Part shown: positions 1,800-23,578 of the stretch, piece after piece | Numbering within the stretch: the first letter of the stretch is position 1 | Layout of the letters: every line of letters starts with the position of its first letter | Made by a program: the position numbers and the translations under genes | The notes under the pieces: model-generated | What the model was told of the DNA's origin: nothing | Seen by the model: the letters and a program-made list of their open reading frames with translations, nothing else | Databases searched by the model: none | Origin: Priapulus caudatus | Lineage: Eukaryota > Priapulida > Priapulimorpha > Priapulimorphida > Priapulidae | DNA length: 23,578 nt | Direction of reading: 5' to 3' | Assembly: GCF_000485595.1 (NCBI RefSeq) | Contig: NW_014578265.1 | Coordinates: forward strand, 8,483-32,060

Positions 1800-3836
1800 T
1801 GTGGGGGTGAGGTAAGGGTGGGGTGTGGTGTATGGGTGTGGGGGTCGGGTAGGCAAGGTTGTGAGCACGTACTTGTGGCCGTGTATGGGGTGTGGTGTGG
1901 GTAACGCAGGGTGTGGAGCACGTACTTGTGGCCCGGTGTGGGGTGATGGGGTCGGGTAGCAGGGTGTGAGGCACTGTCTTGTGGCTGTGTTATGGGGTGG
2001 GGGGTGGGGGCTAGGTCAGGGTGTGAGCACGTACTTTGTGCGCGTGTATGAGGTGTGGGGGTCGGGTAGGCAGGGTGTGAGCACAGTACTTGTTGTGCTG
2101 TGTATGGGCGTGGTGGGGTCGGGTAGCAGCCGGGTGTGATGCACGTACGTTGGTGGTCTGTGTATGGGTGTGGGGTAAGGGTAGCGGTGTGAGCACGTAC
2201 TTGTGGCCTCGTGTATGGGGTGTGGGGGGTCGGGATAGTGCAGGGTGTGAGCACGGTACTTGTGGCCGTGTATGGGGTGGGGGGTAGCGGTAGGCATGTA
2301 GAGCACGGTATTTGTGGCCGTGTACTGAGGTGTGGGGGTGGGGTAGGCAGGGTGTGAGCACGTACTGTGGCCGTGTATGGGTCGTGGGGTCGGTAAGGCA
2401 GGGTTGAGCCGTACCTGTGCCGTGTATGGGGTGTGGGGTGTGGGTAGGCCGGGTGTGAGCACGTCCTTTGGCCGTGTATGGGGTGTGGGGGTGGGGTAGG
2501 GCAGGGTGTGAGCAACGTACTTAGTGGCCTGTGTATGGGGTTGTGGGGGTGGGGTAGGCCGGGTTGAGCACGTACTGTGTGGCTGTGTATGGGGTGTGGG
2601 GTGTGGGTAGGCCAGGGTGTGAGCACGTAGCTTGTGCGGCAGTGTATGGGTGGGGGGTGGGGCTAGCGGCAGGGTGTGAGGCAAGCGTAGCTTGTGGCTG
2701 TGTTATGGGGTGGGGGGTGGTGAGGCAGGGTGGTGAGGCACGTACTTGTGGCTGTGTATCGGGTTGTGGGGGTGGGGTAGCCGGGTGTGAGCACGGTACT
2801 TGTGGCCGTGTATGGTGTGTGTGGGGTCGGTAGGCAGGGTGTGAGCACGTACTTGTGGCTGTGTATGGGTGTGGGGGTGGGGTAGGCAGGGTGTGAGCAC
2901 GTAATTGTGGGCTGTGTAGTGGGGTGTGGGGGTGGGTAGGCAGGGTGTGAGCACGTACTTGTGGCTCGTTATGAGGTGTGGGGGGGTGGGGTAGGCCGGG
3001 TGTGAGCACTGTACTTGTGGCCGTGTAGGGGTGTGGTGGTGGGGTAGGCCGGTGTGAGACAGCGTACTTGTGCCGGTCGTATGGGTGGAGTGGGGCACGG
3101 GTGTGAGGCACGTACTGTGGCTTGTGTATGGGTGTGGGGGTGGGGTAGGCAGGCGTGTGAGCACGTACTTGCTGGCGCCTGCGTAGGGGTGGGGGTGGGT
3201 AGGCCGGGTGTGCGACACGTACTTTGTGGCTGTGTATGGGTGTGGGGGTGGGTGAGGGCAGGAGTGTGAGGCACGTACTTGTGGCCGTGTATGGGGTGTG
3301 GGGGTTTTCGGGTAGGCAGGGGTGTGAGCACGTACTTGTGGCCGGTGTACGGGGTGTGAGTGAGGGGGTGCGCGTATGTTGCTGGAGGGGGGTAGCAGGG
3401 TGTGGGCACGTACTTGTGGCGTGTTTATGGGGTGTGGGGGTGGGTAGCAGGGTGTGAGCACTACTTTGTGGTTGTGTATGGGGTGCTGTGGTGGGTCGGG
3501 TAGGGGCGTGATGAGACGTACTTGTGGCGTGTATGGGGATGGGGGGCTCGGGTAGGCGCGGTGTGAGCACGTACTTGTGGCTGTGTATGGGTGTGGGGGT
3601 GGGGTAGGCAGGAGCCGTGGGCTGTGTATGATGTGGGCGGAGCCGTAGCTACGTGTGGCCGTCCGTATGGGTTTGGTGGTGGGTGGCCGGGTGTGAAGGC
3701 ACGTACTTGGTGGCCGTGTATGGGGTTTGAGGGTCGGGGCAGGGATGTGAGCACGGTACTTGTGGCTGTGTATCGGGGTGTAGGGGGGGGGTAGGCTAGT
3801 GGTGTGGCACGTACTTGGTGCCTGTGTATTTGGCGA
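1800..3836. repeat. 53-bp intronic minisatellite carrying copies of the upstream exon's splice donor
   Basis: About 37 to 38 tandem units of roughly 53 bp fill most of one RhoGEF intron. On the plus strand a unit reads GGGTGTGAGCACGTACTTG, then TGGCCGTGTATGGGGTG, then GGGGGTGGGGTAGGCA. On the minus strand, the gene's strand, every unit contains TACACGGCCACAAGTACGTG. The last bases of the adjoining exon plus its donor read TACACAGGCACCAAGTACGTG (positions 3828-3808). The array therefore starts at the exon border, and each unit carries a copy of the exon end and 5' splice site. Units differ by many one-base indels, more than substitutions, which looks like raw long-read error. Copy number comes from the spacing of GTACTT from about 1868 to 3813. 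Confidence 0.9.
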
Positions 3837-3949
3837 TGCTTTTTTTTTGTCGAGCAGCAGCGGGTACTTGGTGACGCTGCATGCGCCGTCGGATGACAAG
3901 ATCCTCGCTTGGCAGCCTCCGGCGACAACGTGTTTGCTCTCAGGCTGTC
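3815..3949 (-). CDS. ARHGEF11/12-like: RGS-type RhoGEF, exon encoding core DH motif TKYPLLL, frame broken
   Basis: This exon encodes the most conserved DH segment. Piecewise on the minus strand it reads ESKHV, CRRRLPSEDLVI, MQR, VTKYPLLLD and IAKYT. The family pattern is ES..LCRR..L.D.IPTEMQRLTKYPLLLDNIAKYT, so order and spacing agree. Frame changes lie near 3944, around the GCC-T-GAG junction, and at 3870-3882, where MQR and VTKYP need one extra base between them. A run of nine A (T on the plus strand, 3840-3848) plus GC stands where a single Asn codon is expected between LLLD and IAKYT. The acceptor is TGCATTTCAG before 3949. The proposed donor, GTACGTG after 3815, is also the sequence repeated in the adjoining minisatellite; joining to the next exon is off by one base, so the exact 3' end is uncertain. 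Confidence 0.75.
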
Positions 3950-4308
3950 CTGAAATGCAAGATTATAGTCCGTGCAAAGATACGGGGGAGTGACCGGCTA
4001 CCGACCTTCTGTTCGTAACATAATGAGCGCAAACGAATCATGCGTATCATAATTGTAAATTCTATCGAGTATATTATCGAAGGTTAAGGTATAAATTATT
4101 ATCGAATTTATGCGAGTTGATATCGAAGTAAGTAATATTGACATGGCAAGGCTTGGAAAACGTTTATGTCAGCTACACGACTACAAGATCATGACACGGT
4201 ACGCAAATTGTACAATACAATTTTTGTTATAAGGGTCAGGGATCCCTGTTCGATTCTCATTTCATTAGAACTTCAAATTATTTATCCTACGGAGGATAAC
4301 AGGCATGA

Positions 4309-4548
4309 CCGGCAGTCACGAACCGAGGCAACGACTCGTTCCTGCGTAATCTTACGGCTAATGAACTCGCGCGCACTTTTCTTGTGGCGGACCGCATGCT
4401 TGGCCTTGATTGGTCAAGGGCTATGGACTCGGTTCATAGCAAAACGTTGCAACAGCTGTTTGAACTTATCCCCGCCTCACCCCTCGAACTTAAACAGACA
4501 AGCTCAGAGTACATCATTAAATTACATAAGGACAGGCAATTGATGTGA
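4309..4548 (+). CDS. Unrecognised ORF fragment, 79 codons, no clear start
   Basis: I do not recognise this protein. The frame runs from just after a TGA at 4306-4308 to a TGA at 4546-4548. It reads as a plausible helical globular fragment, including NDSFLRNLTANELARTFL, DRMLGLDWSRAMDSV and LQQLFELIPASPLELK. Composition and the lack of low-complexity bias make it more protein-like than neighbouring frames. There is no ATG near its beginning, so it would be an exon or a decayed fragment, perhaps of a transposon nested inside the RhoGEF intron on the opposite strand. Evidence is only composition and length. Confidence 0.25.
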   Translation, partial: PAVTNRGNDSFLRNLTANELARTFLVADRMLGLDWSRAMDSVHSKTLQQLFELIPASPLELKQTSSEYIIKLHKDRQLM

Positions 4549-4988
4549 TAACCACAGTTAGCTTAAGTCTTCTATGCTTGATTTGTCGTTGATGTTTCAT
4601 GGCTTTATGTCTGCTGCCTACATATATTACAGTCTATTGTGAGTATTGCTTGCGCAAAAATAATGACATGATATTAAGACCGCAATAATAACAAAAACGG
4701 AGCATATGGGTCTTTTATTACTCCACCTCTCTATTATTTCCTGAGCAATTTTAAGCTTTATTTGTGCTCGAGACTGTATAGAACCTCTTATGAAGTGCTA
4801 AGAATTCACCCCATCTACGTTTATTCACCAGGTGATGACAAGAATAACTTACTAATGAAAGACTCAATTCGCCTACGTCCCTTGGACCAGCAGGCTCCTC
4901 CTTCAATTCTTTGCCTTCATTGGCTAGTATTAAAGGAACCTGCCATTGACAACGTACGTGTGATTAACTCCTTCACGGTAAGCTAAAC

Positions 4989-22733: not shown

Positions 22734-22831
22734 GCATTTTGGCGATTTCTTCTAAGAAAAAACCTGCCCACGTCATCTCTCGCTGCTGTGAACTTTGCTG
22801 TGCTCGGTCTTGGGGACTCGTCCTATCAAAA
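22734..22831 (+). CDS. NDOR1: NDOR1 coding exon 3
   Basis: Encodes [20 protein letters not shown] then [12 protein letters not shown] plus two bases of the next codon. FWRFLxRKNLP and [10 protein letters not shown] are NDOR1/diflavin-reductase signatures; the latter is the third FMN-binding loop. The acceptor is ATATTGCAG before 22734 and the donor is AA-GTAAAA, phase 2. The introns on each side (241 and 408 bp) are short and show no border-derived repeat. Confidence 0.93.
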
Positions 22832-23239
22832 GTAAAACGTTTGTTTTCGTTTTTTCTCGCATGATCTGATGTTCGGGGTATTGTAGAATAGTGTCTGCTT
22901 GTGTTTGAACGTGTGAATTTCTGTTCTTACATCCTGATCAGAGGCGGAGGTAGGAAGGGCTTAAACGTTGGTGCTTAATATCTGCTAAATATAAGATGCC
23001 GGTCTGAAAAGCCATCCTGCGTTGAAAATGCAATAGGTTAAGCAAAGTTTACTACTCGTGCAAAGGGTCTTACTTGCTGTATGCTCTTAAAAACAAATTG
23101 CTGGCAATTTAATTCGTTGTGTCATAAAATTATCGCAATTCAATTGACCACAATTTTACCACTTAGTTTTACTCCACGCAGTTACCAGCCGTTACTCTTA
23201 GCAATTACAGTGTGTAATTAGCTACCCCATTTGTTCCAG

Positions 23240-23338
23240 GTTCAACTACGTCGCGAAGCGGCTGTATCGGCGATTACTGCAGCTAGGTGGCACTGCTGTC
23301 GTCTCGCTCGGTCTGGCGGACGACCAGCACGACCTCGG
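23240..23338 (+). CDS. NDOR1: NDOR1 coding exon 4 (gene continues past window)
   Basis: Entering in phase 2, it completes the Lys codon and encodes [32 protein letters not shown] and two bases of the next codon. F(N)(Y/F)VAK(R/K)L.RRLLQLGG and DDQH(D/E)LG are diagnostic for NDOR1. The acceptor is TTGTTCCAG before 23240 and the donor is GG-GTGAGT at 23339. The window holds the first 138 or so residues of a protein usually near 600 long; the FAD- and NADPH-binding parts must lie to the right. Confidence 0.93.
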
Positions 23339-23352
23339 GTGAGTCGGCCATC

Positions 23353-23578
23353 TTGTTATCCTCCGTCTCGTGCTCTCGCGGTGTGTCGTCCTCGGTCATG
23401 GCATGGCGTGCTATGACAGCCTGTGACGTGTCACGGACAGCGATGGCATGATATGTTGTTATCCTCCGTCTCATGTTCTCGCGGTGTGACGTCACTGGTC
23501 ATGGTATGCCGTGTGATTACGGCATGCGACGTGTCACGGACAGCGATGGCATGATATGTTGTTATCCTCCGTCTCATG
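23353..23578. repeat. 103-bp tandem repeat starting just after the NDOR1 exon 4 donor
   Basis: TTGTTATCCTCCGTCTC begins at 23353, 23456 and 23559, an exact period of 103. Units include CTCGCGGTGTG and GACGTGTCACGGACAGCGATGG. The array starts 14 bases after the donor and runs off the window. Unit borders (CACGGACAGCGATGGCAT) resemble the exon end and donor (CTCGGGTGAGTCGGCCAT) only loosely. Confidence 0.9.

Follow-up and report, generated by a model that had tools for sequence, protein, structure and literature searches.

Mirages were reportedly first described from the amphioxus Adh gene, in 2002. In later reports they are presented as minisatellites that duplicate splice borders in the amphioxus globin genes (PMC3087553), to which PGBD5 and troponin C (TnC) have been added (PMC3902484). 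A comparable arrangement is found in a stretch of 23,578 nt (C1202, 8483-32060; hereafter the window, meaning the whole stretch) from an assembly of 385 Mb in 2,952 contigs, the DNA of which is judged to be animal from its gene content. Two genes of the window, one for an ARHGEF11/12-like RhoGEF and the other for an NDOR1-like diflavin reductase, contain intron arrays in which exon borders are copied. The initial annotation had described three copied donors, one copied acceptor and a fifth array beginning beside a donor, and all five were located and scored here. These arrays are probably mirage-type intron minisatellites, which would have arisen by local tandem duplication across a border and been tolerated by splicing, with no mechanism directed at the junction.

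Amphioxus mirages have units of 10-160 bp, which repeat either a donor or an acceptor border and keep the splice signals in many copies (PMC3087553, PMC3902484), and the window arrays resemble them in each respect. Their units, of ~53-154 bp, span the border, splice signals are present in many copies, and both 5' and 3' borders are duplicated, as is also described for the amphioxus globin genes (PMC3087553). Mirages are further characterised by mRNA that is spliced normally despite the repeats and by lengths that are unstable between alleles. The window differs in that one of its arrays, in error-rich sequence, reaches ~40 rows, whereas 6 and 3 units are reported for the two BflGb6 haplotypes (PMC3087553). 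Moreover, two of the window arrays lie in error-rich sequence. More distant parallels come from two other reports. In human segmental-duplication genes, internal tandem repeats likewise reach exon-intron borders and alter intron structure, but about half of them lie in the coding sequence of recent paralogs and they are tied to novel introns (PMC2812944). The potato RdRp gene also carries a tandem duplication across an intron-exon border, but there a single duplication created a new intron, whereas the window repeats sit in existing ones (PMC4974935). Beyond amphioxus, human and potato, no further case of border copying was recognised in the portions of the open-licence literature consulted.

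Border copies were identified by asking whether the zone around an exon border recurs in the neighbouring intron with a score above that of dinucleotide shuffles. Zones of 33 bp and of 41 bp were run, with 60 shuffles per border zone and 25 per control zone in the intron interior, and controls were allowed matches on either side; the scores given below for the four clear copies and for the 103-bp array refer to 41-bp zones unless stated. Four of the 16 exon borders in the window have clear copies (three donors and one acceptor, with units of ~53, 54, 100 and 154 bp), and the same four emerge with either zone length. A fifth, the acceptor of RhoGEF exon E2 (5957-5817), passes the rule in both runs and is marginal, with a copy of 18-19 letters scoring 25 against a shuffled maximum of 23 (z 4.1). 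The remaining 11 of 16 fail the rule with 41-bp zones.

The RhoGEF gene occupies 1-7025 on the minus strand, and its arrays are read on that strand too. Exon E4 (3815..3949), in the DH domain (...TKYPLLLDNIAKYT), is followed by a 53-bp array (1753..3829) that begins at its donor and takes up most of the intron, with a unit containing ATACACGGCCACAA/GTACGTGC (here and below, the slash marks the border). Tandem Repeats Finder places this array at 1828-3612, and a cyclic parse of 3829-1753 resolves it into 40 rows, border copy included, each half a unit or longer. The E4 donor zone reaches a score of 50, where shuffles attain at most 42. The precise position of this donor is putative. A paralog of the gene elsewhere in the genome (C204) has a phase 1 intron soon after ...NIAKYT, with which the E4 donor CAA/GTACGTG agrees only if one base at the exon end is extra; that base is probably an assembly error, because the consensus of the 53-bp array lacks it.

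Exon E1 (6810..7025), which lies just ahead of the DH domain (...VKRQDVIQ) in a single open frame and the end of which was aligned to ARHGEF12 1txd, has repeats on either side. On its donor side, a ~54-bp array (6072..6846) copies the border GTCATCAACG/GTGAGCAG, the unit including ~10 bp of exon together with the donor of E1 (7025-6810). Its copies become older and more irregular towards 6072. Tandem Repeats Finder reports 6416-6776, a cyclic parse of 6846-6072 gives 15 rows that each cover half a unit or more, the first being mostly exon, and the donor zone scores 40 against a shuffled maximum of 30. On the acceptor side, a ~154-bp array (7027..7509; Tandem Repeats Finder, 7066-7367) copies the border CTTGCAG/GAGCCTGGACAGTCCGAGCACGTC. 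Three extra copies of the acceptor with 24 bp of exon are found at 7199-7141, 7345-7295 and 7509-7452, the third of which has diverged, its AG having become AA. This border scores 58 against a shuffled maximum of 26.

The fourth clear copy belongs to the NDOR1-like gene, which starts at 20491 on the plus strand. Repeat searches and alignments reveal a broken array of ~100-bp units in its first intron (20603..22032), where the terminal ~29 bp of exon 1 and the donor are repeated at 21077-21129 and 21507-21549, with a remnant at 22005-22032. This donor is the weakest of the four clear border copies, with a score of 35 where shuffles reach at most 30, and of 31 against 30 with 33-bp zones. Successive units over 20645-22000 carry interruptions that are probably inserts and perhaps mobile elements. 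A further array on the plus strand, of 103 bp (23353..23578; Tandem Repeats Finder), begins 14 bp past the donor of exon 4, inside the intron, and extends beyond the end of the window. It holds no copy of the exon 4 donor (score 23 against a shuffled maximum of 35). The unit lengths first reported as 53, about 100, 103 and about 150 bp hold, the last being ~154 bp here, and the array described as "about 75 bp" is taken to be the ~54-bp one.

Borders are also copied outside the window. Eight other loci of the same genome were examined, comprising the RhoGEF paralog and seven myosin loci, the latter holding 36 of 88 PF00063 matches. The myosin loci were chosen before their repeats were inspected, for many exons per short span, a choice that favours short introns, and their borders are the ends of profile matches and hence approximate. 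Four of 62 borders were flagged, of which two are clear, one is a microsatellite and one is doubtful. In the myosin gene on C956, the final 18 bp of an exon plus GTA are repeated 103 bp downstream in the intron with 19/21 matches (78850-78871 and 78953-78974). In that on C484 (50301-50427), an intron end of ~105 bp, including the acceptor CAG near 50306, is present as two tandem copies with essentially no exon in the copy. The candidates set aside were the C484 donor at 49412, the microsatellite, and the donor of the RhoGEF paralog, for which the matching copy lies ~4 kb off. The recurrence at splice borders that the initial annotation pointed out is real, and it is seen again at two of the 62 borders examined outside the window. 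Clear copies are commoner in the window (4/16 against 2/62; Fisher P = 0.014), a comparison to be read knowing that the window is not random, since its repeats led a reader to choose it.

According to the favoured reading, a short genomic stretch that happened to span an exon-intron border would have undergone tandem duplication, after which slippage or unequal exchange would have lengthened the array. The copy closest to the exon, the first for a donor and the last for an acceptor, would still supply the right site, while the other copies became intron. Such arrays may persist because this exon-proximal copy still gives the correct splice site. In a minisatellite-rich genome, some arrays could take in borders without any process aimed at splice junctions. 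The units observed keep genomic order (exon bases, splice site, intron bases) and sit on the intron side. When NDOR1 exons 1-4 are joined, the join takes the exon-proximal donor, and the product aligns to PDB 4h2d_A (NDOR1) free of gaps with an E-value of 2.8e-55. At E up to 1e-4, the units of six arrays match nothing outside the window (217,765 letters searched, overlapping loci counted twice), which suggests a local origin. Minisatellites make up 16.3% of the window, about three times the 5.3% of sampled stretches (25 arrays in 141,500 readable bases), and 1.4% of the myosin loci. The sample consisted of 20 stretches, one from each of 20 contigs and always at the same position; three of the stretches were entirely N.

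The strongest challenge to this reading would be a process that acts on the junction itself and seeds the duplications there, whether through R-loops or breaks at donors or through some other event linked with transcription or splicing. The initial annotation had suggested such a mechanism, yet border zones are not enriched for intron copies relative to the intron interior. In the window, copies were found for 5/16 border zones and 148/436 interior zones (146/436 with 33-bp zones; Fisher P = 1.0). In the eight other loci the counts were 4/62 (1/40 + 3/22) and 197/1089 (36/512 + 161/577), and the test leans towards border copies being the rarer (P = 0.016). Together these results show no border enrichment, and they are not taken as depletion. 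The placement of the arrays gives a divided answer, the claim being favoured at one end of the assumed pre-expansion intron lengths and not at the other. The probability that at least four of five arrays straddle a border is 0.11 with the shortest ancestral introns, 0.0045 with intermediate ones and 0.0001 with rough present-day lengths, where several intron lengths are assumed and two introns have no known end. Counting three further arrays as non-straddling changes these values to 0.12, 0.0054 and 0.0002. Three points weigh against simple tandem duplication: with present-day intron lengths, four of five arrays straddling a border is improbable (P = 0.0001); the border/interior comparison is rough, because long arrays and microsatellites raise the control counts and the controls could match on either side; and the C956 donor copy covers ~21 bp at the junction only and belongs to no longer tandem unit, a case that simple array growth fits less well. 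The 21-bp copy of the junction alone and the low probabilities under the two longer-intron nulls are what a junction-directed process would have in its favour. Against it stand the lack of enrichment in the window and the other loci, the rise of P to 0.11 with short ancestral introns, and the choice of a window that carries more repeats than the sampled stretches do and was selected by its reader for them. Such a process is accordingly considered unlikely. A broader proposal, that splice-border duplication is a recurrent, junction-biased and genome-wide route of intron growth outside lancelets, with junction-only copies like that of C956 among its products, is doubtful, if slightly less so.

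Two of the arrays, those of 53 and 54 bp, could instead be partly artefacts of assembly, if gaps there were filled with raw long reads in which repeats are stacked too often or corrupted. The three conserved exons at 5957-5817, 3949-3815 and 1073-888 contain at least seven frame changes over 462 bp (at least 2, 3 and 2, respectively), whereas none occurs in ~2,170 bp of other exons (7025-6810, 268-1, the immunoglobulin (Ig) gene described below and four NDOR1 exons). In a permissive parse, substitutions and indels per base amount to 6% and 13% in the 53-bp array and to 12% and 21% in the 54-bp array, compared with 8% and 1% in a 34-bp array. The region of ~890-6850 therefore looks like uncorrected long-read sequence, as in a gap fill. 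Since the 53- and 54-bp arrays fall within this error-rich stretch, their copy numbers and the divergence of their units cannot be trusted and should be left uninterpreted. The arrays are nonetheless real as repeats: errors of this kind alter letters and copy number and would not create a unit matching an exon border, and the frames next to the 7027-7509 and NDOR1 border copies are intact. An artefactual origin is thus quite improbable. Selection for many redundant donors or acceptors within an intron, also raised initially, is less probable still. The splice dinucleotides of the 53-bp array are 0.80-0.90 conserved, like the rest of the unit (column mean 0.84), AG is lost in one of the three extra acceptor copies, and at least three 54-bp copies lack GT, though in error-rich sequence. 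The donor columns of the 54-bp array, in the same error-rich stretch, are conserved somewhat better than its mean (0.71-1.00 against 0.71), which may or may not reflect selection, and GT is kept in both NDOR1 copies, as selection would have it. Template switching by reverse transcriptase on pre-mRNA is scarcely credible. No support for it was found, though no test was aimed at it directly and no search for spliced copies was made, and the copies are tandem and in genomic order, even if the intron bases they include make a pre-mRNA template possible in principle. Duplication across borders followed by array growth remains the probable explanation.

The remainder of the RhoGEF gene includes exon E2 (5817..5957), at the start of the DH domain, E5 (888..1073) and E6 (1..268), which encodes the PH domain in a single open frame; E5 and E6 are without border copies, and all three are on the minus strand. 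Between E2 and E4, at 3950-5815, the middle of the DH domain would be expected, but Pfam scans covering two of the three minus-strand frames of 3941-5830 did not show it. When joined, the RhoGEF exon pieces, typed by hand across the frame breaks, match ARHGEF12 1txd at 1.6e-48 and ARHGEF11 1xcg at 3.3e-47. Exon 1 of the NDOR1-like gene (20491..20631, plus strand) has a PF00258 match (E 1.2e-8), and it is followed on the same strand by exon 2 (22415..22492), exon 3 (22734..22831) and exon 4 (23240..23338), none of these three having a border copy. A protein search with this gene gave a best identity of ~66% among the matches listed (120 of 261); no lancelet is named among these, few of which carry names.

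Between the two genes, the 34-bp array (12704-13328) comprises ~18 copies with 8% substitutions and ~1% indels, away from known borders. An Ig-domain membrane protein is encoded at 15814-17082 on the minus strand in an unbroken open frame. A single relative was found for it (P0001, 47% identity) among the 7997 scored candidates sharing most words, and a search from P0001 gave no others. A large inverted repeat at 18632-19770 has arms at 18936-19153/19356-19573 (96%) and 18632-18809/19593-19770 (92%), and is possibly a fold-back mobile element. No tRNA was found in the window, nor any Rfam family at the gathering threshold, and scanning 9290-9365 for inverted repeats gave no hit.

The window appears to add examples of an already described pattern, that of mirages, rather than a new splice-site mechanism, and its high density of border copies goes with a stretch that is repeat-rich and partly error-laden. 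If the animal is not a lancelet, the known phenomenon is extended. Repeats that carry splice borders offer material from which introns can grow and new introns or exons can form. Should they turn out to be frequent in a non-lancelet genome, the rate at which border duplications originate and survive would become measurable.

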